Assembly: GCF_041381155.1 (NCBI RefSeq)
Contig: NC_091136.1
Span: 45,684,284-45,748,283, forward strand
Source of the DNA: Argopecten irradians
Taxonomy: Eukaryota; Mollusca; Bivalvia; Pectinida; Pectinidae
DNA: 64,000 bases
Direction of reading: 5' to 3'
Part shown: one piece after another, positions 13,526 through 40,600 of the stretch
Position numbering within the stretch: the first letter of the stretch is position 1
Layout of the letters: the number at the start of each line of letters is the position of its first letter
Translations under genes and position numbers: made by a program
The notes under the pieces: model-generated
Database searches by the model: none
What the model was told of the DNA's origin: nothing
Seen by the model: only the letters and a program-made list of their open reading frames with translations

Positions 13526-13632
13526 CTACTTGAGCAATTCTTTCATGTCTGACATGGCTTCCAGGATGGCGTCAGCCATCTTGTCTGATGATGTGGTTTG
13601 GCAGTATTTGTTATTTGTCACATGGAAATTTA
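13526..13632 (-). CDS. CPT1: CPT1 exon 19B (terminal exon, proximal copy)
   Basis: Acceptor TTTATTTCAG; the first two bases complete ATA with exon 18 to give [10 protein letters not shown], matching the INFH segment after the GEN/GEE motif in CPT1. It ends [11 protein letters not shown] and TAG, 34 residues in all. The coding sequence is duplicated exactly at 12286-12392. Confidence 0.9.
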
Positions 13633-16600
13633 CTGAAATAAAATTAACAAAACTTATATATTTCATACATTAATGAAACTAGACAAGAATTCTACGGAAC
13701 CTGAGGTGTCATCTGCACAGTTTCACAAAATTAGTTATTTACAGTTGAAAATATTGTAAATAATTAGGGGAAGTTATCAAGTCCCGTTACTCTCATTAAT
13801 CTAAAGCAATAAATCAAATCTGGTTGAAAATGGACAATAAATACTAAAGTTATTGAGCGGAAACCATAGATTATCTGTTTTGATGATTTTAAAGCTGTTA
13901 CTCTTGCAAATATTGATGGATTTTGACCAGTATTAAACCCATTTAAGATCTCATTAACATAAAGCAATATGCCAAATTTGGTTGAAATCGGACAATAAAT
14001 ACTAAAGTTATTGAGCGGAAACCATAGATTATCTGTTTTGATGATTTTAAAGCTGTTACTCTTATTAAACCCATTTAAGATCTCATTAACATAAAGCAAT
14101 ATGCCAAATTTGGTTGAAATCGGACAACAAATACTTAAGTTATCGAGCGGAAACCATGGATTTATCTGTTTTGAAGATTTTAAAGTCCCGTAACTCTTAC
14201 AAATATTGACGGATTTTGGCCATTATTAAACTCATTCATGATCTCATTGATATAAAGCAATATACAAAACTTGGTTGGAATCTGACAATAAATACTTAAG
14301 TTATTGCATGGAAACCGTTTCCCAGACGCCAACGACACGGACGCTGACCCCGACATAGTGATACTTAAAGGCCCACTACCTTTCCGAAACGGCTTTTAAT
14401 TTTTAAAATAGGAATGTGAAACGAGATCAATATTTTTGTAGAGTCGCAGAAGTTATTAACTATACGTTTACTAGCACACTTATCACCACCTTCAGAACGG
14501 TTTATATAGAATAAATAAAATGTTAATTTTCATAACGCGGGTCGTTTTATGTTTCCCGCCGTCGTCCTAAATGCCGCGCGGCAGTTAACTATCACTGCGC
14601 CAGACGGCAAAACAGCGAAATGAATTTCCACTGTTATCGTACATTAGACAGGAAATCTTGCATATGTTTGGTGTTGTAACCTCATCTTAAGCCATCGATA
14701 TATATTTTCTTTTGTTATTAATGTTTTTAAGAAACCTATAAATTTTGCTCCGGAAAGGTAGTGGCCCTTTAAGTGTCGCCCTTGCGTTGCAGGCGACTCA
14801 AAAACGCTACTATGACAGCTTACATGAAATATGAAGACTTTAAATGCATGAACAACTTTTCTAAGTTGGGTATTACCAAACAACAAATAATCATATTTTC
14901 ACTTTTCTTCAAACCAATGGTTCACACTTGAATTTTCTACGTTTAGGGGTTTTCTGCTTGTAGTCCAGCTACTTTTTGTTTTTACTAAATGACATTAAAT
15001 ATGAACATTTAACATGAACGCATACTCATTTCTTCTCCGTAGATCATGTAGGATATTCCGTAGCCATCTGGGGACGCTGGGGCGAATCCACCACCCATGC
15101 AGGAACTCTCTAGTGTCCATTGGTCAGTGTACCGAGTTGGTGTCTGTGATGTACTGAGTTTGTCTGTCATCCAAAAACTCTGTAAACCAGAAAACACTCC
15201 ACTTAAATCAAACATCTCAAATTTAAGTGAACAATAGGTATAAATATTCATCAAAGTTTATTTTCTACATTAAAATTGTTGTGAAACCTGGGTGTACTGC
15301 CATATTATTTATTCACCCAAATGACAAGGATTGAACACAACTTTTTCAATCAAGTTGTTATCTGATATACTTCTGATTCCTCAAAACAAAAAGCATTGAC
15401 TAAAGTCAAAACATTAGTTTTATTCATTAATTAAGTTAAGTAAAACAAATTGACTTCAGTCTATTTCAGACTTCAGTATGTTTTGAGAAATCAGGGCCTG
15501 GTCTTTTACCTTGTCTTGGAATAGTGCCGGTGTTGGTATGTTGAGCTCCTTTGAGGCGGCAAACAGCCCAATAAGATGTCTGTCCCAGCCCTGGCCTATA
15601 CTGGTATCAACCTTGATCTGTGTCTGGTACTGCACGGCCCGCTTGAGTAACATGATCCTTTGTTCCCTAGTCGCTCGCTCATTCTGCATGCTCTGTACCC
15701 ACTGTTTGGAGTATTCAGAGACTGAGCGAATCGTCTCTGTTCTACCATTCAGGAACATCCTACACACAGCAAAAGGAACTCAAATTACACAAAATGAAAC
15801 AGGATAGTTGTATAGTACAAAAGATAAGGTTTAAACAAAAAAATCAAATCAAAATATAAGAAATTTCCTTTTGAGAGTATTAGCTTGCAAATGTACATGT
15901 CCTCTTGCAAAAATTAACTTTTAACATTCAACATTAAAAGATAAATTATATGTACATGTATACAGAAATTAGACATCTGGGATGGCAAGATAAACAGACA
16001 TTTTACATTGTACATAAAGAAATGTCAATGACAGAAAACATGTTTTACTGAATGCTAATCGCAAGAAATAATAAGAGCCCTTTCTCTCAGTCCAACATAT
16101 ACCTGCGACCATTAACCTACCTTGTTGATGCCGATTCGTAGGTTTTAGGTATTTGGTTGTAGAGTCTGTAATACGCCAACTGTAGGGCCATCTGTAACAG
16201 AAACACATTTATATCATCTATTACAGATATGTCTCCTTATTCTTTTATTTTCCTGAAATATTGTCATAACATGCATAGATATTAATAATAAAAGTATTAT
16301 TGATTTACTGCGACCTGATACTGGGTATAAGAATTACCTGAATAAATCCATCAATACTGATCAGATATAAGAATTACCTGAATATAGCCATCAATACTGA
16401 TCAGATATAAGAGTTACCTGAATATAGCCATCAATACTGATCAGATATAAGAATTACCTGAATATAGCCATCAATACTGATCAGATATAAGAATTACCTG
16501 AATAAAGCCATCAATACTGATCAGATATAAGAACTAACTAAATAAAGCCATCAATACTGATCAGATATAAGAATTACCTGAATATAGCCATCAATACTGA

Positions 16601-19600
16601 TCAGACATAAGAATTACCTGAATAAATCCATCAATACTGATCAGATATAAGAATTACCTGAATATAGCCATCAATACTGATCAGATATAAGAATTACCTG
16701 AATATAGCCATCAATACTGATCAGATATAAGAATTACCTGAATAAAGCCATCAATACTGATCAGATATAAGAATTACCTGAATATAGCCATCAATACTGA
16801 TCAGATATAATAAATACCTGAATATAGCCATCAATACTGATCAGATATAAGAACTAACTAAATAAAGCCATCAATACTGATCAGATATAATAATTACCTG
16901 AATATAGCCATCAATACTGATCAGATATAATAAATACCTGAATATAGCCATCAATACTGATCAGATGTAAGAATTACCTGAATAAATCCATCAATACTGA
17001 TCAGATATAAGAACTAACTAAATAAAGCCATCAATACTGATCAGATATAAGAATTACCTGAATATAGCCATCAATACGTGATCAGATATTAGAATTACCT
17101 GAATAAATCCATAAATACTAATCAGATATAAGAGTTACCTAAATATAGCCATCAATACTGATCAGATATAAGAGTTACCTGAATAAGCCATCAATACTGA
17201 TCAGATATAAGAATTACCTGAATAAATCCATCAATACTGATCAGATATAAGAATTACCTGAATATAGCCATCAATACTGATCAGATATAAGAGTTACCTG
17301 AATATAGCCATCAATACTGATCAGATATGAGAGTTACCTGAATATAGCCATCAATACTGATCAGATATAAGAATTACCTGAATATAGCCATCAATACTGA
17401 TCAGATATAAGAGTTAATTGAATATAGCCATCAATACTGATCAGATATAAGAGTTACCTGAATAAAGCCATCAATACTGATCAGATATAAGAATTACCTG
17501 AATATAGCCATCAATACTGATCAGATATAAGAATTACCTGAATATAGCCATCAATACTGATCAGATATAAGAGTTACCTGAACATAGCCATCAATACTGA
17601 TCAGATATAAGAATTACCTGAATAAAGCCATCGGGGGACATCCTCTTCTTCTTAATGAAGCCTTTACCGTACTCAGGGGAGACAATTCGAAGATGAAATC
17701 CACCAGCCTGGAAAAAAGTTCAAGTACATGTTATACTTTCACTATCCTTGTCATTAGGTGGACCTTATGTATTGAAACAAGCCAGTTTTAATAATTAATG
17801 ATTGTATCACAAATAAAAAACTAAAGTACCAACACAGAACTGCAATGCACACTAGCTATATAATGTCGTTGTTTCCAATGTTCCATGTATGTTAAAAGAC
17901 AAGAATTTCACAGAAGTGGATGAGTCGCTTGCACAGCAGTGTAAAACAGCACAAAAATTAGTTATTTACAGTTGAAAATATTGTTAATAATTAGTTGAAG
18001 CTATCAAGTCCTGTAACTCCTGCAAATATTAACAAATTTAGACCAGTATCAATCCAATCCTAGATCTCATTGATATAAAGCACTATACAACATTTGATTA
18101 AAATCGGAGATTTTTAATCAAGCTATCGAGTGGAAACCAGATTTATCTATTTTGACAATTTTAAAGCCCTATTACTCTTGCAAATATTGTCGAATTTTGA
18201 CCAGTATCAAACCCATACAAGATCTCATTCATATAAAGCAATATACCAAATTTGGTTGAAATCGAAAAATAAATACTAAAGTTATCGAGCAGAAACTATG
18301 GATTTATCTGTTTCAACGGTTTTACAGTCCCGTAACTCCGGATGCTGACATTGACGCCGCCGATGCAGACATAGTGATACCTATGTGTCGCTTTTGCGTT
18401 GCAGGCAGGCAACACAAAAATATAAAATATCATCTAATAAGTAATTTCACAATTTAATACTTAAAGTACTGTGATAATGTGAAATCAGATTGTAGACCAC
18501 ATCATGGCTTCTTTGTTTGATAATGTACTCACTATAATATCATTATTACTAAAGTGACTTTGGAGCTTTAATTTGACTTCGTAATTTAAAAACCTATGTA
18601 GTCTGGTAATTATCAAAATGTTGGTAATGATTATTTTGATCCATCAGTATAAAAAATCATTACCAGCTTTCTGTAATGTTCATAGGCTTCTTCCACATCT
18701 TTCTCAAAGCCAGTCATATCCCATGTCAGCCTACACAAATAGAAGTCAAGATTATATAATATATTCATAAAATTACAATTACTTGAGTTTCCAAAACCTC
18801 AATAAAAGAATACATGACAATCAACCTCAAAACAGCAGACATAACTTCACTGTATGGAAAAACATACACATTTTGTATATGCTAGTAGACATGATAGATA
18901 ATATCTCCTAAGTTAGTGTGGGTCTGTCAAGCCAAGTTTCATCATAAAACCATTCTAGTTCAGAGAAATATTGCACAGAGTACTTGTTCACTGAGCAGCA
19001 TTCAATGTAGCAGCAGGGGTGTCCATATTACATACTACATTACATACTACATCATACTACATTACATACTAGATTACATTTCAACCTAATTAATATATCA
19101 ATAGGATTCCAGTAACCTTTCTGAATAATCCACTTTCACTTTCACAAATGTGAATGGCACCATTCAAATCATTAAAATCAAACAGACTCTTTGAAATGAC
19201 AGCAGTCTCAAGAACAAGATTACCAATACAATAATCACTGATATCAGTTAGATAACTTGACCTCACTAACCTTTCAGCAGAAGGGATTTTCTTCTTACGT
19301 GACCTCTCAGGAATAATATTGCCATCCTTGGTGTATTTCTCATTTTGTAAGAAGTATTCCCACATTCTACCAGGCAGCTGTAAATATAATACAATTTAAT
19401 TTATACTGATCTGAAAGACCTAATTCCAAACATTTTATAATAAAACAAAGTATTTATATAATATTATACATTTTAACACTATTTTTCTTCATTCACATAA
19501 AAAGTCAATACCGGTAATTTGAATCCTTAGATATAAAGTTAAGTTATATATAAGTTGATTTGTTTTCTCAAGTCTTTGAATAATAGAATCATATTAGAGA

Positions 19601-22600
19601 ATTGAGAGGAAAATGAACCTATGCAATATTTCAATTAAATTATGAGTACAGGTTCAACAGAAATATCCATAATGTATCACTAATATCAATCTGGCAAAGG
19701 CTAAAAATCCACTGCCATTTACAACACATTAGATCTAGAACTCATGCATATTTTTAGTCACACAACGCCAAAACTGCATCGAAACATATCCACACATATT
19801 TCTCCTGAAAACACTCTATTACAACTGTTTTGTGTTGACGTTTCTATTTAATGTACTAAATAATGGCCAGAAAAACAAATGTAGCTTCATTTGATTTTAT
19901 GAAATAATTAGAGTTATTTCCCTTTGTTAGTTGGTATAAAGGGAAAGTTGAATAAAAAGAGTTTACAAAGAACATATCAAGTAGATACAGTGACAATTTC
20001 AGTATTTACATGATTACAAATGGGTCATTCAAATGGTCAGTCAAGGCTAGCATTGGTTTTTGGACAAATTTCGTTTTGATGTCATCTCACTGCATAGGTC
20101 TAGAGAGGTAGATGCAAATGTGTAGTATGGTTAGTGATCATTTACTGCTACAATTCACCACACATATGTACTGGTGTCACTGAATACAATGCTAATTAAG
20201 TCATGCAAACATCAAGTATTAGTTATATTCCAATATTGTATACACAATTAACTTGATAAGAACAGACCATAATACTGAAACAACTATGTCATATAGAATC
20301 TCCATTAGACTATTTCTTGTGATGAAAGATAATTTTGATTACCTATATATAGTCCACACAGATTCATTTTACCTCCTTAACAATATAAAGATTGACAATC
20401 CTGAGCTATTATGTAGATATAAAGGTATATTTATCATACGTATGTACATAAACATATTACACATTCTCAAATGAAAATTAATCAATATCAGTGCAATGTT
20501 GTTTTTTCATGTTTTTGTTTTTTTCCTTTTCCTGAAGTCTTCTTTATTTCAAAGAAAGTGTAATCCTTCAACAACATACAGACTATTTTGTTGATACAGA
20601 AATATATTTTCACAAATCCTTTCACAATTCCCAAATCCTTACGTGTAACCCAAACGATGTAGTAGCATAAAATGCCATGCAAAGAGACACATCACCACAT
20701 GCAATACAGGGGATTTTCACAACCATGCATATCGATTTGGTCTGCTTTAAACAATTTCAAAATGAAACATAGAATATAAATAGAAGCTTGAAGTTGTATA
20801 TCTAATTTGTTTAGTATTTAATATTTCTATTGTGTTTTAAGTAACATATGTTTAATTAATAGTAATTTACTAGATATTAATCAAATAAGGACATGTTCGG
20901 TGAACTTCTGTGAACTTGCAGAATATTACTGTGTACAGGTAAGCTATATATATAGTTATGGATATATATGTACAGTGTCCGGTACCGACTGAAGCCAAGC
21001 AGAGACCAGTGCAGCTCTAGGATATATACAGCGTAAACATTGTGCAGACCCACAGGACCACTTCACCTCTCTGTACACAACTTACTGTTGCGTCAGCACA
21101 ACTGTGTTCTCCATTACACCCCACCACACCGTTGGTACTTATATTAAACATGATAGACTTGTCGAACCACCTGTCAGGACAAAACACCACCAACCAAAAC
21201 CCATTAGTAACTTATTTATGCAAAATAAAAATATTCATGATATTTCTTTCTTTCTGCTGTGTGGGGCCTGGGAGGCCATATTGTTGAAGTTTTCCAATAT
21301 TCAGTAGTTGCTGCTTATGGAGACAGTAGCCAAAGTCATTGCAGCTTACAATGTATGGGGTTGCAGTGGCCAAGCAGTTATGATTTTTTCCAACAGTATT
21401 TCATATTTGTGGCATACAATATGTGTGGCCAAGGTGGTCAATCTGTAACTTCCTAATACTCTGTACTATTGGTTACATACAACGAATATGATGCAGCAAT
21501 GACCAACTAGTTGTGGGCTAAAATTGGCTTCATGTTTGCTTATAATTTCTTGGTAACCGGTACAAGACCAGAATTACTTCATTACCTGATATCAGCCTTA
21601 GGTCTAAGATTTTTCTCTTGGTACTTTCACTTGCATAGATTATCAATCTTGGCACACCCTTAATGATTATAGCTTTTGAACAAACAAACCAATTATGCTG
21701 GTTGACTACAAAACTTCCAATCAATGAGCCTAAGTTTCCATGTTTGAGTAATTTCTTTGACAGTCCCCAGTAATGTGACAATTCATTGATTTTTGTTTAG
21801 ATTTAAAATCCAAAGGTACAGAGTTGGTATCAGTCAAGGAATAGTTTTTGAATAAGGCCAAAAAAGTAATGTCTGTTAAGGGTTACCCGACCGACCCTAA
21901 TTTTTTACCCCCGGACCCTAATTTTCCCCCCAATTTTTCTAAGAAAATAAATATTAAAAAGTCGGAATTTAGATCTCAGACTCCGATTCCGCCATTATTT
22001 CACAGTGAAAGACACTAAGAAAAAAAAATCCTCCAGACCTACCGACCCTATTTTTTTTGCTAATGTAACCCGAAACAGACATATTTTGTTTTTTGGCCTA
22101 ATGACCATCACAATCTCCACAGAAACAGAAAGTAGAAATAAAACATAACCTTCTATATAATTATCTACAAAGAAAAAAACATAATCAAAGTCATACTGTA
22201 AATAGGAATATATTCGCATGTGGATTATTTTCGCTTGATCAGCTTTCAAACTATTCGGGGTGTGCCAATCTAATACCACTTTGCATCATAAATGAAAATA
22301 TCAATTAAACTCTGCACTTGAATATAATAGCATTTGAATATAATTACATGGAGATTTAAAGAAAACAAATTAAGCTAAAATGTCCACACCACGAATAATT
22401 TCACTTTAATTTACAGTGATTAAAAGATACATGCATCCAAACTCAAATTGTTTTCTTAAATGATATTTTTAAAATTAATACATAGGTTTAGAAATTTTGA
22501 GAATTTTGTAATAAAAAGGACATATCACAACCAAATTATGACAAAAACAAACAAATACTTTATATTCAGCTTGTTTTTTTCAATCTGTGTTAAGATTTTG

Positions 22601-25600
22601 CAATAATATCTTGTTATGTATTGATGTAACAAATAAAAAAGCTGATACCGTAATTTATCATAAAGAGTTTGCATACATTTACAGCCACACTCAAAATAAG
22701 CAATGTATACACAGGAATGCGAAGCTTATTCACACTTTGAAATAAATCTGTGTATCTGAAGCAAACTGAAAAATTTCATTAGCATGTGGGTATGTGTTTA
22801 CTATACTGGTTGCAGGTGTATATGTGTACTGGGATATATGTGAGTTATATTTACAGGCATTAGCACAAAGTCATACAGGTGTGCATTCAAGGTCAAAAAT
22901 ACCACAGATACCAGGTAATTTTTTTGGAAAGATTTTCATTTTAACAGATAAATTTATATTTTGCATGAATTGATATAATACAGATTTTTGTGATATTAAA
23001 GTAAGTTCAAATGACTTTTACCATATATTTTCTCATAGGATTACAGATTTTTTTTATATGTGCAGAGAGGAGACTCATTGTTACAACAGAGGACATTTAA
23101 TGTTACCCTGTTCCGAAAAATTGAAAGCAGTCAGTTTGAACGTTATTTTGACCTTAAGTACACATGAGGAGTAATAGGTGAGTATACAATAAAACTATGG
23201 GATCTATGTTAGTGTTCAACACTGTAAAAAAATGGTCTCCACGTGAAACTCACTGTAGCGTCACCAGCCGAGTGTTCCACATTCACGCCCGTTTTACCAT
23301 TAGTAAATACGGGAAACATCATAGACTTGTCAAACCATCTGTTCAATAGGAAGCGACATATCACAGTCACATGTTTTCAAATTACAAAAAGACCAATATA
23401 AATTAAATTACCTTTAGCTTTGTTACTTCAGTGGCTGGTTTACCAGGGTGGGGAGAAGGGGGATAAATGAACATATACTTTAAATTCTTACATAAATAGT
23501 ATCATGCCAGTTACATTATTATCATAATTTAATAAAAGAGTGTACTAATAACTTGAAATGTGTTAAAGAAATGCATATTGTACAATTAAGGTATTTAGAA
23601 ATATAATATTACCAGGTACAGTGAGAGGTATAATAAATCTAAAATACAACATTTCCTTTATATATTAAACATGCAATGAATGGGCTATATTTTAAAATTA
23701 AGAATGAGGCCATTTATTTGATGACAATTAATAAAATTAAGTTTTAATATAATCATTACACAACAAATTAAACTAGATGGTATTTAATATGAATTAGATT
23801 TTGTACCAACATTCAAGAGATAGAGGGTTAGCCATATAATGTCTGGACACTTTAACCATTTGGCCACCTCAGTCAATGATAATTATATCTTAAAGTGCAA
23901 GAAGCATTAGTAAGAAAAAGTGTCCTCCAAAATTGAATTATGGCTGCTTATCAACCATTCCAACTGGGTTCACCAAACATTTAAAATTGTTAATGGAGAC
24001 TTTGTTTCCCAAAATTGCTATGACATGCAGTTAAATATCACATATCAAGTATAATCATATTTATTATCTCTTAGATCCAAAAAAACTAGTGTATACTTAA
24101 TATGAAATTAGTTACATAGTGTTGTGTTATCATATTTAACAAACTTCCATTCCAAGTCCAAACAAACACAAAAGTCTGATTGTAAAATTCTTATCCCTTC
24201 TTTACGTGTGTTGAGAAAATTATGGCAAGTAATATTTATCCAGTTTTGAGATAAGTGCATTTCAAGATAATAAACAAACAATTCAGTAAATTAATTGATA
24301 TTTGAGAAATTTACAAGAGGACACTTTTTTCAGGATCCAGCACTAATTAAACTATGTATGGAATCTAACCCACCTACAACATCCACACCCAATACTATAT
24401 ACAAAATATTGATTAGTCTATGATAATAAGATTGTTGTATCTACCGGTTAATTAGTTTTCAGTTTTGATATTTTGTTGACAATATCGATTTACTACACAC
24501 ATCATAAACCTAAATCTTTGTAAATACATGTTTAAAACATAACTTTGTATCATTAACAATCATTAAGAATCAACTAACGAGTTTACCTGTTAAATCCATT
24601 TCCAACCATAATGCATTTTCCATTTTCTTCAATTGACTGAAAAGATAGAAAGAAGAAGATTTGATTGATTATTAAAATGGTTATAGTGGTCATATATTAT
24701 TCTAAATAAAACAGTAAAAAATAATTAGTTAAAATATGATAATGAATCTGAAAAAATATTCATGAAAAATACATATTTATTTTATACTCATTGTTACTCA
24801 AGCAGAAATAAGACAAAGTTTAGTAATTCTGTACAGCCATTTTTCAATCTTTAGAAAAGCTTTTTAAAACAAGAGGTCCATGAGCCTTAGTGGTCACCTG
24901 AGTTCGGATACAGAATGAAACAAAGACATATAAACACGAGTCACTATATATTGGCCTATCAGGCCCTTGAAATCAGTTGGTGATTTTATAAATTTGACTT
25001 TTTTTTAATCTATGAAGAAAATTTGGTTCTATCAAATCTGTGAATTCAAAAGAAGATTTTTTGAAATTTTAGTCAATTTGACCGCACTTGGCCCCACCCC
25101 ACCTGTCCCGGGGGTCAGCGCGGACTGATATGGATATGTTAAAATGCTTTATCTCAGATTCATCTAAATTTCCCATGAAAATTGAGCAAATAATGCTCAT
25201 AAAAGTGTTTTTCCTATATAAAGTATAATAAATTTGATCCCCTTCCCAGGGGAAAATCTGAGATCCCAGGGCTATGAAATTCACAATTTTTGTAAAGGGC
25301 CTTAAGACCTTCCAACTTATGAATCGAAGAGTATCTGGTTCCATCAAATATGTGAATTCAGAAGATTTTTGAAGTTTTAGCCTATCTGACCCTTTTGGTG
25401 CCACCCCTCAGTCATGAAAAAATTATTAATAGGATTCAATGGCCATTCATACTGATAATTCTGACAACATTTGACTTATTTCCCATTACAAATGACCAAA
25501 TTATGCTTAAAAATGTGCTTTCCTTATAATTAGTAAACTCCAGTGGGAAACGCGAGATCCCAGGGTCATAAAATTCACAATTTTTGTAAAGGAACTTAAG

Positions 25601-28600
25601 ACCCTCCGATCTATGAGAGTATTTGATTCTACCATTTCTGGAATTTCTGAAGAAGATTTTTGAAGTTTTAGTCTATTTGACTACTTTTGGCCCCACCCCT
25701 CAAGCCCTATACAACGCACAGCGGATGGCGGACTACGCACGACAACAGATAAAAGGTGATTAGAAAAGGTCACTTGAAACTTCGCCTCAGGTGACCTAAA
25801 AATGTCTTTATATTAAATGCATACAATTGATGTAAACCTACTGTTGGTATTTCTTCATCCAGATAAACTAAAAATATTGCTGAATCTATTGTTTCTAAAG
25901 TCTTTTTGTTCAATTCCTGTTCAATCATTCTGGTGCGAATCTGAAATTTAAAGGTAAACAAAAATTCAATATCATGGATAAACATTTCTTTGTCCTTCAA
26001 ATTTTGTAAGTCAAAATATGTGTGTTTTTATCAAATATACAAAATCAGGAATATTTAAGTTCAATGTGCAATTAAATTTGGCACTTTTCCGCAAACATTA
26101 ATAGCAAGTCTTTCTGAGTACATGTACAGTAGAACCATCGAAATCGTGAACTAAAATCCAAGAGAAGATATTGTTAAGTGTGAACACAGGAAAATCAGTT
26201 GGTTTACAGTACACAGTACATTAAATTTTAATGCTCAGGATACCAGTCAATCAGCACAGAGAATATACAACAGATTAATTTTTCTTGTGATTTAGGATGT
26301 TAAAGTAACTCACATCAGCCCATTGGTCCCGTTTCAGAGCGGTGAAGATTGCCGCCTGTGAACTGTCAACTGACTCTGCAATGAATAACAATAACTTCAG
26401 ACATGAAATGATATCCATGGATATTCATTTATCAATGGATACTACAGAAAATCCTCACAACCTTTTCCTATGAACGAAAGTAATCCTAAATTATCCTCTC
26501 TCACAGTACACTCTCTTAATTTATCATTACAAATATTTCATCATCTAAACCTAAAACTTGTTTTGAAAGTGAAAATAGAGACGTTCAGTAGCTTCAAATG
26601 GAAACTTGTTTCAAAACAGATTAAGTTCTTAACTATATTTCAAAATACAATTTTTTTAATTTAATTTACCGAACCGAATTAATGCCAAATACCACAATAA
26701 TTGGAAAGCACATGTAAAATCATGAACAGATAATGATATCTTGGTCATTGATAGATAAAGGTACTGTTAAGCGAGTGTGTACTGCAAACCTTCCGCATCT
26801 TTTAAGATATGTTCCATGATCGGTAGGATTTCTGCTGGTGTCAGTAATCGATCTTTGCCATCGTTGTCAGGAGCATAGACACTCAGCTTGTAGTAACTGT
26901 TCTTTCTGAGGAAATAAAAAACTAAATTAATCAAAAATTATATTCCTGATTGAAAAACTGACATGCAGCAAACAAGAGCCTTCTGAGATCAGCAAGGTTT
27001 GCTTTGGGGGCTTTTAATGGCCTAGAAACTTAACCATTAAACCGCTTGAAATCATGGTAATCCAGCTTATATAAATGTAGAAATAATGTCAGTTGTTACG
27101 GATAACAGCATTCCACATTTTGCCTTAAGCAGCATCAACTCTGACACTAGGTTGATTTACAGAAGCCTGGCGCCGGCCGCACCCTATCTTAGGGAAGAAG
27201 ATTTTTATACAGAAATTATTATATCCAATTTTCTTCACTATTATCAAAAATAAAATCATTTAATATTAACACATTACCTTTCAATTAAAATTTTAAATGT
27301 TTCTTTCAATTGTAAAACTTTTTCCATTCCAGTGTTGCTTTTCTAATTTATGATAAGAAAAGGGGAAACAACTACTGAATTCCTACCTCAATATCACAAC
27401 ATGTTTTGAATCCTTCCATGTGACTAGTTCATCTACATGTTTGCCTGGTATACGGGAGGTACAGAACTGCATTCTGGAACAAAACAAATATGGAATTACA
27501 GATCAATAGATTTCTCGCTCAGTTCACTCAGAAATCTGAAATGGGATATGGAAGACAAAGATTATCAATATGGCTATGTTCAATTCTCTGAATCATTCCA
27601 TTGTGGGTGAATAGCAAAATTGATGAAAATTTTAGATTTTGGCATTTATTTTTTTTTTAATTTTTATCATTTTTTTTTTCTGAGGGATATAAGTATTTAA
27701 ATGTTGATCAGATCACTTACTTGTAACCTTCCATACAAATAGGTATCATGTCTTGTAAAAACTGTGGTTTTAGGGTCTCTTCCAAGATATTTTGATGAAA
27801 CCTAGAGGAAAATTAAATCAAATTGAAATTTCATGATGCTTATAATGCTAAAGTATAAAGTAGATTACAAGAAAATGCAACAATCTGTAACCAAAGCAGT
27901 AACATAATCACAGATTACTTTTCCAATAAAAGTTTATGATACCAGTAATTCTAAAAAGATTTTCTCAAAAATTAGTCTACATAAGTTATATAGACAAGAG
28001 GCCCATGGGCCTTAACGGTCACCTGATATTTTATACAAATTAGTTGTATCATTTACTAGCCAATTGATGTCTTTTGTTCATAAAATAGGAACAGAGATCT
28101 TATAGGTCTACATACAAAGTTTCATTAAAGTGGACAGTCGGGCAAGGAAAGTTAAAGTTTGTAAAAATGGAGTGAATGTATCCGGCATAATTTCTTATGG
28201 AATAGAAAGATAAAATCCCCCGTCAAAACCTCTCTGCATGTGAAGAAATTAATTTATAGTTTAGGAATCCTAAAATGTCCTTCCGACTGACTATGTCCGT
28301 GGTTACATTTCCACGCAGCCTCGCTTTCAAAGAGTTATTTCAATGGTCAGAACTGGGCAACGTAAGCAGAACTTGACCGTCGTTCTAATATGCGAGAACA
28401 TTTGGAAGGCCAATGAACGCACTAAGACTGGTTTTCTTTGCCCGACTATTCACTTTAAGCTTGGTGCATATTAACTAAAATAATCATGTTTTCAAGGATC
28501 AATAATTATTATTGCAAAAAGCAATAACTCCGTAATTAAATCAGTCGAGTCAAGCTAATTTTAGAACTCATCCAAGTTTTTGTCCTAACAAGGTCCTATA

Positions 28601-31600
28601 ATAATTGTTAGTGTTAAGGGCGGTAACTCCAAAATTACTACTGAATCACGCTAATATTCAAACTCGTCCAAGATTTTTCCACTATTAGTCTACATAACAA
28701 AGTTTCATTATGCTCATTTCATATTTACTCCAGTTATCGCGTTCACAAGGTCCAATAATATTCATTAGTGCAAAGGGCAATAACTCCATCATTTATTGTC
28801 AATGTCCAATATTAGTCTACATACAAAGTTTCATTAAGCTCGTTGATATTTATTAAAGTTATCGCATTCAAAAGGAAATGTTAACAAACGTCGCACAAAC
28901 AAAAGACTATCGCAATAAGTCACCATGACCTATGGTCAGGTGACCTAAAAATCTGGCCACTTTGTGGTATCAAAAGAATTGTAAGACAGGGGGGGATTAT
29001 CACAAAATGAAATATTTCCATTTTCTGTTCTTATATTTGATGAGATTAGTATGTATATATATGTCTGTATATAGTAATAGTCAGTCACCTGAGTATCCAG
29101 TGTGTTAGGTTAGCCGCCCTTGCTGCCTGATTTGTACTTCCAGCATCTCGTCTGTCCGTCGCATAACAGTTCACATTCACTGTAGAGGCAAACATATCTC
29201 ATAGTACAGCTTCTAATGTATATATCATAACAGTTCACAGTCAGTGTAGAGACAAAAATATCTCATAGTACAGCTTCTAATGTATATATCATAACAGTTC
29301 ACATTCACTGTAGAGGCAAACATATCTCATAGTACAGCTTCTAATGTATATATCATAACAGTTCACAGTCAGTGTAGAGGCAAACATATCTCATAGTACA
29401 GCTTCTAATGTATATATCATAACAGTTCATATTCACTGTAGAGGCAAACATATCTCATAGTACAGCTTCTAATGTATATATCATAACAGTTCACAGTCAG
29501 TGTAGAGGCAAACATATCTCATAGTACAGCTTCTAATGTATATATCATAACAGTTCACATTCACTGTAGAGGCAAAAATATCTCATAGTACAGCTTCTAA
29601 TGTATATATCATAACAGTTCACAGTCAGTGTAGAGGCAAACATATCTCATAGTACAGCTTCTAATGTATATATCATAACAGTTCACAGTCAGTGTAGATC
29701 GAGGCAAACATATCTCATAGTACAGCTTCTAATGTATATATCATAACAGTTCACAGTCAGTGTAGAGGCAAAAATATCTCATAGTACAGCTTCTAATGTA
29801 TATATCATAACAGTTCACAGTCAGTGTAGAGGCAAAAATATCTCATAGTACAGCTTCTAATGTATATATCATAACAGTTCACAGTCAGTGTAGAGGCAAA
29901 CATATCTCATAGTACAGCTTCTAATGTATATATCATAACAGTTCACAGTCAGTGTAGAGACAAACATATCTCATAGTACAGCTTCTAATGTATATATCAT
30001 AACAGTTCACAGTCAGTGTAGAGGCAAAAATATCTCATAGTACAGCTTCTAATGTATATATCATTACAGTTCACAGTCAGTGTAGAGGCAAACATATCTC
30101 ATAGTACAGCTTCTAATGTATATATCATAACAGTTCACATTCACTGTAGAGGCAAACATATCTCATAGTACAGCTTCTAATGTATATATCATAACAGTTC
30201 ACATTCACTGTAGAGGCAAACATATCTCATAGTACAGCTTCTAATGTATATATCATAACAGTTCACAGTCAGTGTAGAGGCAAACATATCTCATAGTACA
30301 GCTTCTAATGTATATATCATAACAGTTCACAGTCAGTGTAGAGGCAAACATATCTCATAGTACAGCTTCTAATGTATATATCATAACAGTTCACATTCAC
30401 TGTAGAGGCAAACATATCTCATAGTACAGCTTCTAATGTATATATCATAACAGTTCACAGTCAGTGTAGAGGCAAACATATCTCATAGTACAGCTTCTAA
30501 TGTATATATCATAACAGTTCACAGTCAGTGTAGAGGCAAACATATCTCATAGTACAGCTTCTAATGTATATATCATAACAGTTCACATTCACTGTAGAGG
30601 CAAACATATCTCATAGTACAGCTTCTAATGTATATATCATAACAGTTCACAGTCAGTGTAGAGGCAAACATATCTCATAGTACAGCTTCTAATGTATATA
30701 TCATAACAGTTCACAGTCAGTGTAGAGACAAACATATCTCATAGTACAGCTTCTAATGTATATATCATAACAGTTCACAGTCAGTGTAGAGGCAAACATA
30801 TCTCATAGTACAGCTTCTAATGTATATATCATAACAGTTCACAGTCAGTGTAGAGGCAAACATATCTCATAGTACAGCTTCTAATGTATATATCATAACA
30901 GTTCACAGTCAGTGTAGAGGCAAACATATCTCATAGTACAGCTTCTAATGTATATATCATAACAGTTCACAGTCAGTGTAGAGGCAAACATATCTCATAG
31001 TACAGCTTCTAATGTATATATCATAACAGTTCACAGTCAGTGTAGAGGCAAACATATCTCATAGTAGAGCTTCTAATGTATATATCATAACAGTTCACAT
31101 TCACTGTAGAGGCAAACATATCTCATAGTACAGCTTCTAATGTATATATCATAACAGTTCACAGTCAGTGTAGAGGCAAACATATCTCATAGTACAGCTT
31201 CTAATGTATATATCATAACAGTTCACAGTCAGTGTAGAGGCAAACATATCTCATAGTACAGCTTCTAATGTATATATCATAACAGTTCACATTCACTGTA
31301 GAGGCAAACATATCTCATAGTACAGCTTCTAATGTATATATCATAACAGTTCACAGTCAGTGTAGAGGCAAACATATCTCATAGTACAGCTTCTAATGTA
31401 TATATCATAACAGTTCACAGTCAGTGTAGAGACAAACATATCTCATAGTACAGCTTCTAATGTATATATCATAACAGTTCACAGTCAGTGTAGAGGCAAA
31501 CATATCTCATAGTACAGCTTCTAATGTATATATCATAACAGTTCACAGTCAGTGTAGAGGCAAACATATCTCATAGTACAGCTTCTAATGTATATATCAT

Positions 31601-34600
31601 AACAGTTCACAGTCAGTGTAGAGGCAAACATATCTCATAGTACAGCTTCTAATGTATATATCATAACAGTTCACATTCACTGTAGAGGCAAACATATCTC
31701 ATAGTACAGCTTCTAATGTATATATCATAACAGTTCACAGTCAGTGTAGATCTCCTAGATTTTACTGAAGATAGTAAACTAAAGATAAATTTTAATAATA
31801 AATATGGCTAATCTGCAACTGTAATACTAAAGTCAACAATTTAATTGAAATGTAAAAACAAGCACAACTTTATAAAAGCTCCCAAAATTATTTAAAACAT
31901 ATTGATACTGATAAAGCCAACAACATAACAACTTTGCATACCTATGGCTAAGAACTTCCAAGAACAAGTAGATGGAAATTTATACCAAGTAAATTCCATG
32001 GAATGCTATTTCATTTGCGAAAATATAATTAACCAAAGGATGCAATATGAGAAGCATACCATGCTGAGAAATTCTAATTTGTTAGCATTATTTTAATTTT
32101 CTCGTTACTTTAACTATCAAAATAACTGGGTTTATGGTATCATATTGTACAGAATTCAAATGACTGAGATTACAAATAATCAGTCTCTTTTGGTTAAGTA
32201 AAGGAGAATTGTAACATGGCCTCCAATTAGTCAGATCATTGATTAACTGGAGTTTTATCACAATGACTCCCAATTAAAGGCTGCAGTTGTTATGGAAACA
32301 AAGAGAAGAACAATACAGTATTTAACAGTTTATTAACAGCCTAAATCTATATAATATATCAAGTTAAGTACAGTGTATACATTTTCATGGATATTTTCCC
32401 TGGATCAATATACAATGTACATCATTTTGATTAAATGTTAGATAAGAGCAAATGAATTCTCACAGGTGTTTAACAGATAAAAGTGTTCTATCAAAAATAT
32501 ATTTCCCCATAAATATCTGACTCATTGCTAAAGGAAAGTGTGTTTTTGATTGGTCTGCAGCACCAACAACCTGTTGTGATTGTTGGTTATTGATCAAATA
32601 TTATGACTCAGTATTGTTGAGATGTTAAATCTATACATTTATATACATATATGATGGAATTCAAATCTGTCGCACAACATATTCTGCACATTATTTAGAA
32701 TAATCAAAGCTTCAATATGTATTTTTCTTCTTTCTTAAATTTCAAAATTTATTTACTGCTAAGAAACTGAAGGATAAATTTTCATACTATTAATCCTTGC
32801 CTGTTGCAAATATATTTACCGGGTACTGTGTAAATTTTGTGTTTAGCTGAATTATCCTTTGCCTATATCACAAAAAAGTACAAATGTACCTGTACATGAA
32901 AATGTTGGCTTTCAGTCAAATCTTATTAACTACCTGTAAATATGCCTTTACATCCAGCTGTATCAGGATACAGTGTATAGGCAATACATGTATGAATTCA
33001 ATGTACTAAAAGATTATACACATTTGATCAGAAAGCGTATCAAGTAGATAGCCTGCAGGGATCAATCTAGGTTTTTGGGGAAATAACCCTTTTCAAAATA
33101 GGGGAAAAGTTTGGCGAAATATAGGGGAATTTGAATCTTTTTATTTTGGTTCAAAATTAAATTATATTCATTTTGACGAAAAAGTACTGTAAAACAGCTA
33201 ATTTTATTTTTAGATTTAATAAAGCAAGATTTTAAGCTCAATAATGAAAAAATTGAGTTTATCATTAAATATGCAGTAGCTGTATGATAAATATGAAGAA
33301 ATTTGCAAACAAAAGTCTTAAAACATTAATGAAAAATAAGTCACAGGGGAAATTGTGTTACAAAAATGGTCATTTTTTAGCTTCAAATGGGGGATTTCTA
33401 AATCTTCAGGAGGAATTTTAGGCAAGAGGGGAATTCATTCCTTGAGGGGAAATTTACACATAAACGGTAATAAATCGGAGCTAGATTGATCCCTGGCCTG
33501 AGAGACACTGCAATTATATTATGTTGACTTCCATTCACGGTTTTTCCATGTACATGTACACAACATTATCAAAATCATTCATACCTTGGAATCTAATAAA
33601 ACAAGAGGCCCAAGGGCCTTAACGGTCATCTGACTACCTTGCCAACAGTCATATAGCAAATCAATTAAATATGGTGTCATGGTATATACATATATAGAGT
33701 CATCTTTGATTTGTGATCAACCAGAGACGTAACAACACTTTGTCATGATCATATCAGGATCATTTCAGGCAAGTTTCAGCCAAAACACAACGGTAGAACT
33801 GTAGTTTAAGTTCAAAATGTGTTTTCAAGATGGTAACTGTGGCGGCCATCTTGGATTTCAGATCAACCCAAAAAATAACAACAGTTGGTCAGGACCATGT
33901 CAGGATCATTTCAAGCATGTTTGTACAAAATTGCAATGGTAGAATTGTAGAAAAAGTTTGAGTTTTTAAGATGGCAGCTGTGTGGCTATCTAGGATTTTG
34001 GATCATTCCAAAAAATAATAACACTTAGTCAGGACCATGTCAGGATCATTTTATGCAAGTTTCAGCTAAATCACACAAGAAGAACATGAGAAGTTCAAAA
34101 TGTGTTTTCGAGATGGCGGCTGTGACTGCCATCTTGGATTTCGGATCAACCCGAAAAATAACAACACTTTGTCGGGACTATGTCAGGATCATTTCATGCA
34201 AGTTTCAGCTAAATCGCACCTGTAGAACTTGAGAAGAAGTTCAAAATGTGTTTTCAAGATGGCAGCTGTGGCAGCCATCTTGGATTTCGGATCGACCCGA
34301 AAAATAACAAAACATCGTCGGGACCCTGTCAGGATAATTTCATGCAAATTGCAGCCAAATTGCACCGTAAGAATTTGAGAAGAAGACTCACAATACTGAC
34401 CACTAAATCTCTAACCGGCTCCAGCATGATGGACTTTAGCATGATGGACTTAAGTTTAGACTTATTAGCCAATCAAATATGATACAACTTTCTGTAATAT
34501 CATTTCTGTTTGGTTAAATCTACATGTACTTTTTAGATTGTTTTAGATTTTTGACTGTTTTGTGGTCTTGGAGTCGGGCCAGAATTAAATCTCCAAACTT

Positions 34601-37600
34601 AGTGATTCAAAATGCTATCAAATAAACTTTCATACCATACTCTTTAATTAAACTTTTGTATGATTTCTAAACTGTATCAAAATCCATATAGAAACATATA
34701 ATGATTAAATACATGTAAAATAAATAAAGGTTAAACAAATATGTAACTGTTCTATAGCATTTCTGTAGTTTGTTTAGTATATGTGTATTAGATATAACCT
34801 CAGGATAAAAAGTATCAGCTACAATTGAAAAACAATTTAGTAACATTATAGGCAGTGTATATATATATATATATATAGCCAATTGTTCACCTAAAGACAG
34901 TTTAGTAACATTATAGGCAGTGTATATATATATAGCCTATTGTTCACCTAAAGACAGTTCAGTAACATTATAGGCAGTGTAGTCGTTGTCATGTAATTAA
35001 AGACAGTTTAGTATCATTATAGGCAATGTAGCTGTTGTCATGTAACTAAAGACAGTTAGTTTAGTATCATTATAGGCAATGTAGCCGTTGTCATGTAACT
35101 AAAGACAGTTCAGTAACATTATAGGCAGTGTAGCCGTTGTCATGTAACTAAAGACAGTTTAGTATCATTATAGGCAATGTAGCTGTTGTCATGTAACTAA
35201 AGACAGCTAGTTTAGTATAATTATAGGCAATGTAGTCGTTGTTATGTAACTAAAGACAGTTCGGTAACATTATAGGCAGTGTAGCCGTTGTCATGTACCT
35301 AAAGACAGTTAGTTTAGTATAATTATAGACAGTGTAGCTGTTGTCATGTAACTAAAGACAGTTAGTTTAGTATCATTATAGGCAGTGTAGTCGTTGTTAT
35401 GTAACTAAAGACAGTTCAGTAACATTAAAGGCAGTGTAGCCGTTGTCATATAACTAAAGACAGTTAGTTTAGTATAATTATAGACAGTGTAGCTGTTGTC
35501 ATGTAACTAAAGACAGTTAGTTTAGTATCATTATAGGCAGTCTAGTCGTTGCTATGTAACTAAAGACAGTTCAGTAACATTATAGGCAGTGTAGCCGTTG
35601 TCATGTAACTAAAGACAGTTCAGTAACATTATAGGCAGTGTAGCCGTTGTCATGTAACTAAAGACAGCTAGTTTAGTATCATTATAGGCTGTGTAGTCGT
35701 TGTCATGTAACTAAAGACAGTTCAGTAACATTATAGGCAGTGTAGCTGTTGTCATGTAACTAAAGACAGCTAGTTTAGTATAATTATAGGCAGTGTAGTC
35801 GTTGTCATGTAACTAAAGACAGTTCAGTAACATTATAGGCAGTGTAGCCGTTGTCATGTAACTAAAGACAGCTAGTTTAGTATCATTATAGGCAGTGTAG
35901 CCGTTGTCATGTAACTAAAGACAGCTAGTTTAGTATCATTATAGGCTGTGTAATCATTGTCATGTAACTAAAGACAGCTAGTTTAGTATAATTATAGGCA
36001 GTGTAGTCGTTGTCATGTAACTAAAGACAGTTCAGTAACATTATAGGCAGTGTAGCTGTTGTCATGTAACTAAAGACAGTTTAGTAACATTATAGGCAGT
36101 GTAGCCGTTGTCATGTAACTAAAGACAGTTCAGTAACATTATAGACAGTGTAGCCGTTGTCATGTAACCAAAGACAGTTCAGTTACATTATAGGCAGTGT
36201 AGCCGTTGTCATGTAACTAAAGACAGCTAGTTTAGTATCATTATAGGCAGTGTAGTCGTTGTCATGTAACTAAAGACAGTTCAGTAACATTACAGGCAGT
36301 GTAGCCGTTGCCATGTAACTAAAGACAGCTAGTTCAGTATCATTATAGGCAGTGTAGTCATTGTCATGTAACTAAAGACAGTTCAGTAACATTATAGGCA
36401 GTGTAGCTGTTGTCATGTAACTAAAGACAGCTAGTTTAGTATAATTATAGGCAGTGTAGTCGTTGTCATGTAACTAAAGACAGTTCAGTAACATTATAGG
36501 CAGTGTAGCCGTTCTCATGTAACTAAAGACGCTAGTTTAGTATAATTATAGGCAATGTAGCCATTGTCATGTAACTAAAGACAGCTAGTTTAGTATAATT
36601 ATAGAAAGTGTAGTCGTTGTCATGTAACTAAAGACAGCTAGTTTAGTATCATTATAGGCAGTGTAGTCGTTGTCATGTAACTAAAGACAGCTAGTTTAGT
36701 ATAATTATAGGCAGTGTAGTCGTTGTCATGTAACTAAAGACAGTTCAGTAACATTATAGACAGTGTAGCTGTTGTCATGTAACTAAAGACAGTTTCAGTA
36801 ACATTATAGACAGTGGAGGCGTTGTCATGTAACTAAAGACAGTTCAGTAACATTATAGACAGTGTAGCCGTTGTCATGTAACTAAAGACAGTTCAGTAAC
36901 ATTATAGGCAGTATAGCCGTTGTCATGTAACTAAAGACAGTTCAGTAACATTATAGGCAGTGTAGCCGTTGTCATGTAACTAAAGACAATTCAGTAACAT
37001 TATAGGCAGTGTAGCCGTTGTAATGTAACTAAAGACAGTTCAGTAACATTATAGACAGTGTAGCCGTTGTCATGTAACTAAAGACAGTTCAGTAACATTA
37101 TAGGCAGTATAGCCGTTGTCATGTAACTAAAGACAGTTCAGTAACATTAAAGGCAGTGTAGCCGTTGTCATGTAACTAAAGACAGTTCAGTAATATTATA
37201 GGCAGTGTAGCCGTTGTCATGTAACTAAAGACAGTTCAGTAACATTATAGGCAGTGTAGTCGTTGTCATGTAACTAAAGACAGTTCAGTAACATTATAGA
37301 CAGTGTAGCTGTTGTCATGTAACTAAAGACAGCTAGTTTAGTATCATTATAGGCAGTGTAGTCGTTGTCATGTAACTAAAGACAGTTCAGTAACATTATA
37401 GACAGTGTAGCTGTTGTCATGTAACAATTTTTTGAGTAATGGGTAGAATATATGGGTAATAATATACAAATGTATAGCCATGTCTTTATCATACAGTTCT
37501 GAAAATTTTACCTGCACAAGGCTCCCTGTAGGTGAGGTAGGCTAAGTTTAGCCAGTAGTTAGTCAGCCAGTTCTCCTCTGTAGCAAATCTACAACACACA

Positions 37601-40600
37601 ATTAGGACAATGTACATGTTATACGTTCAGATCAAAACATCACATAGTACAGTAGATTATTGATTAAGTTGTGAAATCTTTTGTCATAAAGTTTAATAAT
37701 AACATATGTTTTTGAAGCTAGCTGCACTCCCATTATTCTTATGATTATTTTTCAAAACATTAAGAAAGAAATCCACATTTTCAACTAATTAGGTATTAAA
37801 TACAATTATAATTATGTTACTGTGAAATCCTTACATGTACAAACTGAATACTGAATAAAATTTTCAACATTTTGTTTTCAAATAACGTCTTGGTACCTAA
37901 TTGTATATGGTCACTATAGGGTATAACAGAGACATTGTAACTTAATTAAATTTATATCATACTATATTTTGTAACAGCTTACTTTTGAAGCAGATGTTTT
38001 TGCAGGGTGGGGCCTTCCTTTTCCTTGAATGATAATACGGCTGTTAAAAGGTTCATGAAGTCTTCGTCCGACAGCAGAGGCCTCATGGATGTTAGATACC
38101 TGAAAATCAAAACAAACAAAGCAATGTCAATTAATGATATTTTCGCACAAAGTTCAAACAAAAGGGCTAACAGTATACATTCTTAGTACAGTTTGTCATA
38201 TTGACTTACCATACCATAATTAGCCCCTTTACTATTATTTGGTATAAGTATAAGAGGCAATCTATGTCCTCTTCCCTGATGTCTATGAATATCATTATTA
38301 CGTTCTGTAGGAAATTAGATTACAGTATATGGTTCAAAACGAAGCTACCTGCATGGCTATTAGTTTTGACTACAGAATTAAGTTAAAAAAATGTTGGACA
38401 TTGCCTTGATTTTTCTTGCGTCATTTTCTGATTAGTTATTAATTAATTTTTAAACCACATGTTTCTGAAATCAGCAAGACCAAGTATAAATTAGAGATTA
38501 TATTATGTATTGTTATTCTATTGTCACATTATACGCTGTATTGAAAATATGTCATGTAATACATGCAATTTAAAGAACAAGACAGCTAAGTCATCATTTT
38601 GCTTACATTAATGATTAACCTTATTTCTATGAGAAAAGTAGCTAAGTAATATTAATGTTTTTCAAAATAAGCATTACAGATATCGATATTAGAAAACAGG
38701 ATTATGTTTGACCAGCCGACATCTATACGTATATTATTGTGTACATTAGTATCAGGAAATCCCTTTTCTAAGTGCTGCTTTAGCCTGCCCATTATAACTG
38801 ATGAGAACCGGAAAGAGATTAAAATTACAACACCAGGAAAACTGTACATGTACACATTTGACTGTTGACTAATATATTCATCAATCGAATATAAATAGTT
38901 AAAACTTAAAACCTTTTATAATATGATTTACTTCATACCTTACGCCAAGTTTAGTTCTGAATTTAGTATCAATTAATACTTGCATTATGTGAAAACGTAG
39001 GTTGATATTGTCAATTTCTATACAGCGCCATCATATGTTTTGAACTTACTTCTCGCATGTAATGTTGAGATCTGGGACAGGGAGGCGTGGTAGCATTGCC
39101 TGGAAGAAGAAGGTCGGGAAGTTGCCTTTTCCCACTATAGCTTTTAACATCAGCCCCCATATCTGTAACACACAAATAAGACACAAAAAATACATCAAAT
39201 GATAGAAAATAAATTGATGAATGATAATGAACAGATAGACTAACTAGCATAGAATACTATGTATATAATTTTGTAAAAAAAAAAAATTTCTTTTCATGCC
39301 CACACTAGTTTATGTATAATAATACATTTTGTACATATATGTATTCCATAATAATTGTTAGGAATATGTATCAGTCTCTTCAAATACAGATCGAGTTATC
39401 TGCCCATCTAAGAAGGCATGTATTCATATATAATATATCTATAAACAAGAGATCCCAGAGGGATCTTGGCGCCCACCAAAGAAAGATCTATGTCTGACAT
39501 TGGAAAGAGGGGTCTTTTCCCTGCTTTTCAAACTTTTTCAAACACATGACATATAAAATTTGAGACAGATCGCTATAGTACTTTCTAAGAAATAGTGGTA
39601 ACAAACTTCAACAATGAAATCTAAGATGGCGGCCGGTTGGCCATCTTGTTTACCGATCAGTCCCGAAAGGCATTATGCATCAGTCCTAAAAGGTACTATG
39701 CACAACTAGGGTACAAGGGGAACCTACACATAAAATTTGAGAAAGATCCCTTCAGTACTTTCTGAGAAATAGCCGTAACAAACTTTAACAATCAAAATCC
39801 AATATGGCCGTCGGTCGGCCATCTTGTTTACCGATCGGTCCCAATTAACAATATGCACAACTAGGGTCCTTGGGGAACCTTCATATGAAATTTGTAAACG
39901 ATACCTTCAGTACTTTTTGAGAAATAGCGGTAACAAACTTTAACTATCAAAATCCAAGCCATCTTGTTGACCGATCGGTTCCAAAATGCAATATGCACAA
40001 CTAGGGCCCTAGGGAAACCTATATATGAAATTTGAGAAAGATCCCTTCAGTACTTTTTGAGTAATAGCGGTAACAAACTTTAACTGTCAAAATCCAAGAT
40101 GGCCACCTGTCGGCCATCTTGTTCACCGATCGGTCCCAAAATGTAATATGCACAACTAGGGTCCTAGGGGAACCTGTATATGAAATTTGAGAAAGATCCC
40201 TTCAGCACTTTTTGAGAAATAGCGGTAACAAACTTTAACTATCAAAATCCAAGATGGCCACCTGTTGGCCATCTTGTTGACCGATCGGTCCCAAAATGCA
40301 ATATGCACAACAAGGGTCCTAGGGGAACCTACATATGAAATTTGAGAAAGATCCCTTCAGCACTTTTTGAGAAATAGCGGTAACAAACTTTAACTATCAA
40401 AATCCAAGATGGCCACCTGTCGGCCATCTTGTTGACCGATCGGTCCCAAAATGCAATATGCACAACTAGGGCCCTAGGGGAACCTATATATGAAATTTGA
40501 GAAAGATCCCTGCAGTACTTTTTGAGAAATAGCGGTAACAAACTTTAACTATCAAAATCCAAGATGGCTGCCTGTCGGCCATCTTGTTGACCGATCAGTC

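Follow-up and report, generated by a model that had tools for sequence, protein, structure and literature searches.

The stretch analyzed here (the window) comprises 64,000 nucleotides of the scallop Argopecten irradians (assembly GCF_041381155.1, contig NC_091136.1, positions 45,684,284 to 45,748,283 of the forward strand). A CPT1-like carnitine acyltransferase gene was located on its minus strand, in which two tandem exons, here named A and B, each code for the segment carrying the catalytic histidine. Probably A and B are tandem duplicates that exclude each other in the mRNA of this old CPT1-like gene, through which the unit holding the catalytic His would be swapped. The gene, the pair and its immediate neighbors are as follows (coordinates are those of the window).

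13526..54630, minus strand: CPT1-like gene of about 41 kilobases (kb), reaching from the start codon exon at 54630 to the stop at 13526, placed by tblastn of protein P0001 and splice joins
24636-24587, minus strand: constitutive exon preceding the pair, ends ...GNGFN-R inside an Arg codon, phase 2
23338-23254, minus strand: alternative exon A, 85 nucleotides, residues 405-433 of P0001, found in the transcript contig protein P0001
21171-23253, minus strand: intron separating A from B, 2083 nucleotides
21170-21086, minus strand: candidate alternative exon B, 85 nucleotides, B-like segment in Mizuhopecten P0002
19377-19271, minus strand: constitutive exon following the pair, entered in phase 0; its start corresponds to the part that insects swap in CPT1

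An earlier interpretation made from the DNA letters (the sequence-only reading) had described these two exons, and its coordinates, lengths of 85 nucleotides, phases (2 on entry, 0 on exit), GT-AG borders and 18 of 28 shared whole residues were all reproduced by measurement. When the split Arg is counted, 19 of 29 residues are alike. The nucleotide identity is 56/85 (29 differences), yet just 10 of the 29 residues are changed; the rates of nonsynonymous (dN) and synonymous (dS) divergence for this comparison are 0.34 and 1.04. Both A and B code for the catalytic EHxxxD segment with E, H and D kept, and they differ at position -4 from the His (Val/Cys), at -2 (Val/Gly) and also at +2 and +3 after it. 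Joined from 24587 to 19377, either exon alone yields a single open frame, 504 residues long (15 exons joined), that ends at the stop at 13526. That both or neither breaks the frame, as had been claimed, was borne out: A and B together lead to a premature stop 8 residues past DAT, and omission of both to one 37 residues past GNGFN. Homology, similar length, the same phases and matching splice sites were found together with disruption of the product by both or neither, which are among the marks of mutually exclusive exons.

The donors of the pair are GTGAGT and GTAAGT; that of exon B (ACA-GTAAGT) is a strong consensus site and its acceptor is ordinary. An assembly or haplotype duplication was ruled out, A and B being alike at only 56/85 nucleotides. 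Steric exclusion of double splicing by a short intron was ruled out by the 2083 nucleotides between the exons, and incompatibility with U12-type splice sites by the two donor sequences. The introns around A and B have only short stretches in common (12-34 nucleotides), which makes the duplication an old one. No third copy of the exon was detected in the 64-kb window using tblastn with both exon peptides (next matches at E of at least 0.3). Twelve pairs of inverted repeats were found in the introns, and in one of them an arm lies within exon A; this is a raw count in an A+T-rich region, and nothing was concluded from it.

Exon A is used in mRNA. Protein P0001 (714 residues) derives from a contig of 3444 nucleotides, whose source tag 'lgn' we take to denote Logan SRA assemblies, and it is identical to the joined A form at 503/504 residues, the other being Thr/Ala. 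Since a contig of 3444 nucleotides covers a gene of 41 kb, it represents a spliced message.

For exon B the question is whether it is functional. Drift was simulated in 4000 runs starting from exon A, in which one copy was limited to synonymous change and the other drifted freely, at a difference of 29 nucleotides. Ten or fewer residue changes were seen in 3/4000 runs, and an open frame with E-H-D kept and ten or fewer changes in 1/4000. Judged by this simulation, the residues of exon B have been kept too well for it to be a neutral relic. In the protein model P0002 of Mizuhopecten yessoensis ('isoform X2', two member sequences), which is 85% identical to the window gene product, the corresponding segment is B-like, RWYDKSVSFVTFANGVTGCNGEHSTCDAT, with GCNGEHS as in B.

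The exon segment was also compared with its flanks in 17 CPT1-like proteins (P0001-P0016 and P0021, from 21 best matches; P0017-P0020, including Lingula, Branchiostoma and Owenia, were omitted), giving 136 pairs. Segment identity was at least that of the flanks in 93 of the 136. P0001 and P0002 are 86% identical in the 300 flanking residues and 62% in the exon segment; this drop of 0.24 is the largest of all pairs, the next being 0.15, as expected if P0001 shows exon A and P0002 the other exon. Among 15 other proteins, 11 were nearer to A, 3 were tied and 1 was nearer to B; on these alignments exon A looks like the ancestral form. The CPT1-like protein P0008 of Pinctada imbricata has a segment unusually diverged from those of P0004-P0006 (flanks 0.66-0.68, segment 0.55-0.59), and perhaps it too has a B-type exon.

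Several observations weigh against a conserved and expressed exon B. Of the remaining pairs, 13 have flanks more than 65% identical; in only 6 of these was the segment at least as similar as the flanks, and in 7 it was lower by 0.04-0.13, so that some divergence of the segment is common among these proteins of the lineage. Related species were a check named by the sequence-only reading; a B-like segment was present in Mizuhopecten P0002, but it is just 66% identical to exon B, far under the 86% of the flanks, which indicates that B evolves fast or that P0002 has yet another copy. A search with a B fragment of 146 residues (27 candidates) found nothing at E 1e-8. The protein database is clustered at 90% identity, which would fuse the two forms of a species into one entry. 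The RNA basis differs between the exons, A being present in P0001 and the B-like form only in the Mizuhopecten protein model; no RNA junction of B was seen for Argopecten irradians.

These points are in part those on which exon B could be regarded as a relic or a poison exon, rarely used or making only out-of-frame mRNA and so lowering the output of the gene: the fragment search gave no B transcript match, the A+B join stops 8 residues past DAT, and B has diverged fast. A poison exon, however, need not keep its coding frame, its E-H-D or its phase, and the constraint simulation (1/4000), the B-like segment in the Mizuhopecten model and the strong consensus donor with an ordinary acceptor speak against the idea, which we consider unlikely. 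We infer instead that Argopecten irradians uses exon B in its mRNA as the alternative to A.

The identity of the gene was investigated using domain searches and a tree of 50 chosen sequences, for which P0083 and P0115 served as outgroup. PF00755 was present and CPT_N (PF16484) absent in P0001, P0002 and the oyster protein P0005, whereas CPT_N was present in the CPT1 of Pecten (P0121) and of Drosophila (P0061). The window gene product also lacks the Trp of EHSW. The tree placed the window gene together with sequences of other bivalves, Lingula, Owenia, amphioxus, tunicates and sponges in one clade (support 1.00) and the canonical CPT1 sequences of molluscs, arthropods and vertebrates in another (support 0.82), several inner nodes being weak. 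The canonical CPT1 of Argopecten irradians was identified on another contig (C1:54440468-54465915); it starts MAEAHSAVAFSFSV and is 90% identical to Pecten maximus P0121, and the nearest Pecten maximus protein sits in the canonical clade. On this evidence the window gene belongs to a separate, old CPT1-like lineage and is not an orthologue of CPT1A or CPT1B. Among the matches found, the lineage is present from sponges to amphioxus, and we know of no activity or function for any of its proteins. The earlier proposal of mutually exclusive exons for the CPT1 active site therefore holds as to tandem, frame-exclusive candidates for a catalytic segment and fails as to the gene, given the tree and the missing CPT_N. 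Further pieces of CPT1-related genes were seen at two places, C13:5345576-5353616 (minus strand) and C13:5509862-5532206 (plus strand), with EHSYADAP inside one exon; no sign of duplicated exons was found there within the 2000 and 1500 bases examined.

The position of the exons in the fold was taken from an AlphaFold2 model of P0001 (isoform A), which has a mean predicted local distance difference test score (pLDDT) of 87. Its best matches among solved structures were CrAT, COT, ChAT and CPT2, and both the fold and the domain match place isoform A in the carnitine/choline acyltransferase family PF00755. The exon A segment (405-433) consists of a strand (411-415), an NG turn, a second strand (421-426) ending in Glu426, then His427 and a loop to Thr433. 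The helix that follows (434-445) lies in the next constitutive exon and corresponds to the segment swapped by insect and canonical scallop CPT1. E426, H427 and D431 were invariant in 28 aligned sequences, and all three are kept by both exon versions.

The most telling difference is at -4, where A has Val423; B and Mizuhopecten P0002 both have Cys. CPT2 has Val at this position in the alignments. The titles of Protein Data Bank (PDB) entries name the COT mutants C323M and M335V, and scores against the mouse COT chains were compared. The B-isoform fragment scored 19.6 bits with the wild type and 15.1 with C323M (4.5 less); P0001, with Val at -4, scored 230 bits with C323M and 229 with the wild type; and a query with Leu at -4 scored 17.9 and 16.5, respectively. 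These differences are best explained if Cys323 of COT aligns with position -4. This placement comes from score differences between COT chains rather than from an alignment. In COT, Cys323 belongs to the lining of the acyl pocket.

The mechanism that we propose is as follows. The spliceosome would join either A or B between exons 24636-24587 and 19377-19271. As both exons are 85 nucleotides long, including the two or skipping the two shifts the frame, and such an mRNA would be removed or would yield a truncated protein. Given the 2083-nucleotide intron and the ordinary GT-AG sites, exclusion would rest on frame or decay, possibly aided by regulators or RNA structure. The choice of exon may be under tissue control. 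Both products are predicted to be catalytically competent through the kept Glu426, His427 and Asp431, and a different acyl-CoA preference, through a switch of the acyl pocket, would be the most likely effect of the differing strand toward the His and of residues -4, -2, +2 and +3. Provided that both isoforms are made, we put the chance that exon choice alters this preference at somewhat below even.

The sequence-only reading had gone another way, proposing that splicing does here what vertebrates do with CPT1A and CPT1B. That conclusion does not follow, because the gene is not an orthologue of either; it lies in a separate clade and lacks both CPT_N and the Trp of EHSW. Two isoforms differing chiefly in malonyl-CoA inhibition, like CPT1A and CPT1B, are improbable. 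The exon segment does adjoin the catalytic site, and according to PMC7767417 the isoforms of Drosophila CPT1 differ in activation and inhibition kinetics. Those, however, are isoforms of a canonical CPT1 with another segment swapped, and the window gene is without the N-terminal regulatory domain, which makes a different malonyl-CoA response the weaker possibility beside a changed acyl-CoA preference.

The remaining coding exons of the gene were placed by tblastn of P0001 or by splice joins as follows.

54310..54630, minus strand: first coding exon, approximate end, residues 1-107 of P0001
39049..39162, minus strand: coding exon, approximate, residues 108-145 of P0001
37982..38101, minus strand: coding exon, approximate, residues 145-184 of P0001
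37513..37590, minus strand: coding exon, approximate, residues 184-209 of P0001
29089..29179, minus strand: coding exon, from tblastn of P0001 and splice joins
27721..27801, minus strand: coding exon, 81 nucleotides, from splice joins (as are all that follow)
27387..27473, minus strand: coding exon, 87 nucleotides
26790..26905, minus strand: coding exon, 116 nucleotides
26314..26375, minus strand: coding exon, 62 nucleotides
25842..25940, minus strand: coding exon, 99 nucleotides
18664..18730, minus strand: coding exon, 67 nucleotides
17618..17707, minus strand: coding exon, 90 nucleotides
16121..16191, minus strand: coding exon, 71 nucleotides
15510..15759, minus strand: coding exon, 250 nucleotides
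15026..15179, minus strand: coding exon, 154 nucleotides, STSQTPT motif
13526..13632, minus strand: last coding exon with stop, identical coding copy at 12392-12286

Three repeats touch these exons. The minisatellite at 29162-31750 (64 bp x 40) has a unit that includes the acceptor and first bases of coding exon 29179-29089; the form CTACAG-TGAAT occurs in 11 copies, the true acceptor among them, and CTACACTGACTG in 30. Copies in this array could act as decoy splice sites. A second array derived from a splice junction of the gene, at 16326-17632 (40 bp x 33), has a unit that includes the end and donor of coding exon 17707-17618, and TTCAG-GTA is present in it 28 times, again with the true donor among them. 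The last coding exon is doubled by a recent tandem duplication (13649-12432 / 12409-11193, 98.9% over 1221 bp), in which the coding copies are identical.

The canonical CPT1 of the scallop was found to contain an exon pair of its own. An exon coding for IGFNAEHSW stops within the Trp codon and is followed by two tandem exons and then by YTEDGHTKG.

C1:54460066-54460131: canonical CPT1 tandem exon, 66 nucleotides, ADAPIMAHLWEYATIDDKFKFG
C1:54461094-54461156: canonical CPT1 tandem exon, 63 nucleotides, ADAPVMGHLWEVSTADDRSLG

The frame is kept when both are included. The alternatives of insect CPT1 begin directly after EHTW or EHSW (Drosophila navojoa P0071 and P0084; bee models P0108 and P0111), and the two bee models hold both copies in tandem with the frame kept. 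Among the 120 listed, five gene models of lophotrochozoans (Lymnaea, Biomphalaria, Mercenaria, Lingula and Paralvinella) also hold insect-type copies in tandem. With the pair at the same position in the canonical CPT1 of the scallop, this argues that the insect-type pair is wider than insects, through a single origin or through several. In a label-swap test of exon correspondence (6 lophotrochozoans, 5 insects), 4 of the 64 swaps did as well as the observed assignment, with Mercenaria and, slightly, Lymnaea disagreeing; a common origin of the canonical pair in lophotrochozoans and insects is no more than suggested.

The same data bear on whether the window pair could be the known insect CPT1 pair, inherited from a common ancestor. 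The enzyme family is the same, neighboring residues are affected and there are two tandem copies in each case. Nevertheless, the insect alternatives start after EHxW, whereas the window exon contains the His and ends at DAT, and the scallop canonical CPT1 has its own pair at the insect site, with one intron after NGR and a second inside the Trp codon of EHSW, neither of which matches those flanking the window pair. Inheritance from the insect-type pair is thus hardly credible, and its different place and flanking introns argue that the window pair arose separately. The sequence-only reading had mentioned alternative exons in Drosophila CPT1 and had left their place undecided; they are not at the same place, as insects swap the next segment, after EHxW. 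A paper by Price et al. in 2010 reportedly deals with the alternative exons of insect CPT1 (whd).

By title or start of abstract, no description of mollusc alternative CPT1 exons, of either pair, was found among the matches listed in the open-licence literature. This gives slight grounds for regarding both mollusc pairs as new to the literature. PMC4589379 contains one passage on invertebrate Cpt1, and the terms splic-, exon and mollus- do not occur in that paper.

An exchange of the exon that carries the catalytic base would be an extreme use of alternative splicing; A and B would give two enzymes identical except for 10 residues. The scallop canonical CPT1 and the five lophotrochozoan models (two from gastropods, one each from a clam, an annelid and a brachiopod) suggest that the insect CPT1 pair is no insect speciality, and its wider occurrence bears on how fat oxidation is tuned in animals without CPT1A/B/C duplicates. 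More speculatively, the active site of the CPT1 family might be built of two adjoining swappable modules: the helix after the His, in canonical CPT1 of insects, molluscs, annelids and brachiopods, and, independently, the catalytic hairpin in the scallop CPT1-like gene. The latter might toggle the acyl pocket between two states, CPT2-like with Val and COT-like with Cys, and so provide a long-chain and a medium- or branched-chain enzyme from one gene; we regard this as a tentative idea.

Known systems resemble the window pair in different respects. Mutually exclusive exons and tandem duplicated exon substitution in general, as described in PMC9741552 and PMC3228551, share with A and B the same length, phase, splice sites and homology; the A/B unit differs from them in carrying the catalytic base of an enzyme. 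COT and CPT2 (1XL7, 1XMC, 2H4T) have the same fold as the window gene product. Position -4 is Val both in CPT2 and in A, and in COT it is apparently Cys323, which would match the Cys of B; but COT and CPT2 are separate genes, whereas A and B would be isoforms of one. The canonical scallop CPT1 likewise has two tandem active-site exons, predicted to be alternative; it differs from the window gene in their insect-type position, in its intact EHSW and in an N-terminus like that of CPT_N-bearing CPT1. The insect CPT1 (whd) pair also consists of two tandem exons for alternative active-site segments of a carnitine acyltransferase, and Drosophila CPT1 is described in the review PMC7767417 as having two isoforms by alternative splicing that differ in activation and inhibition kinetics and in tissue use. 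The whd exons, however, code for about 22 residues after EHxW and have other introns in another gene lineage, while the window exons, of 85 nucleotides each, hold the His itself and end at DAT.

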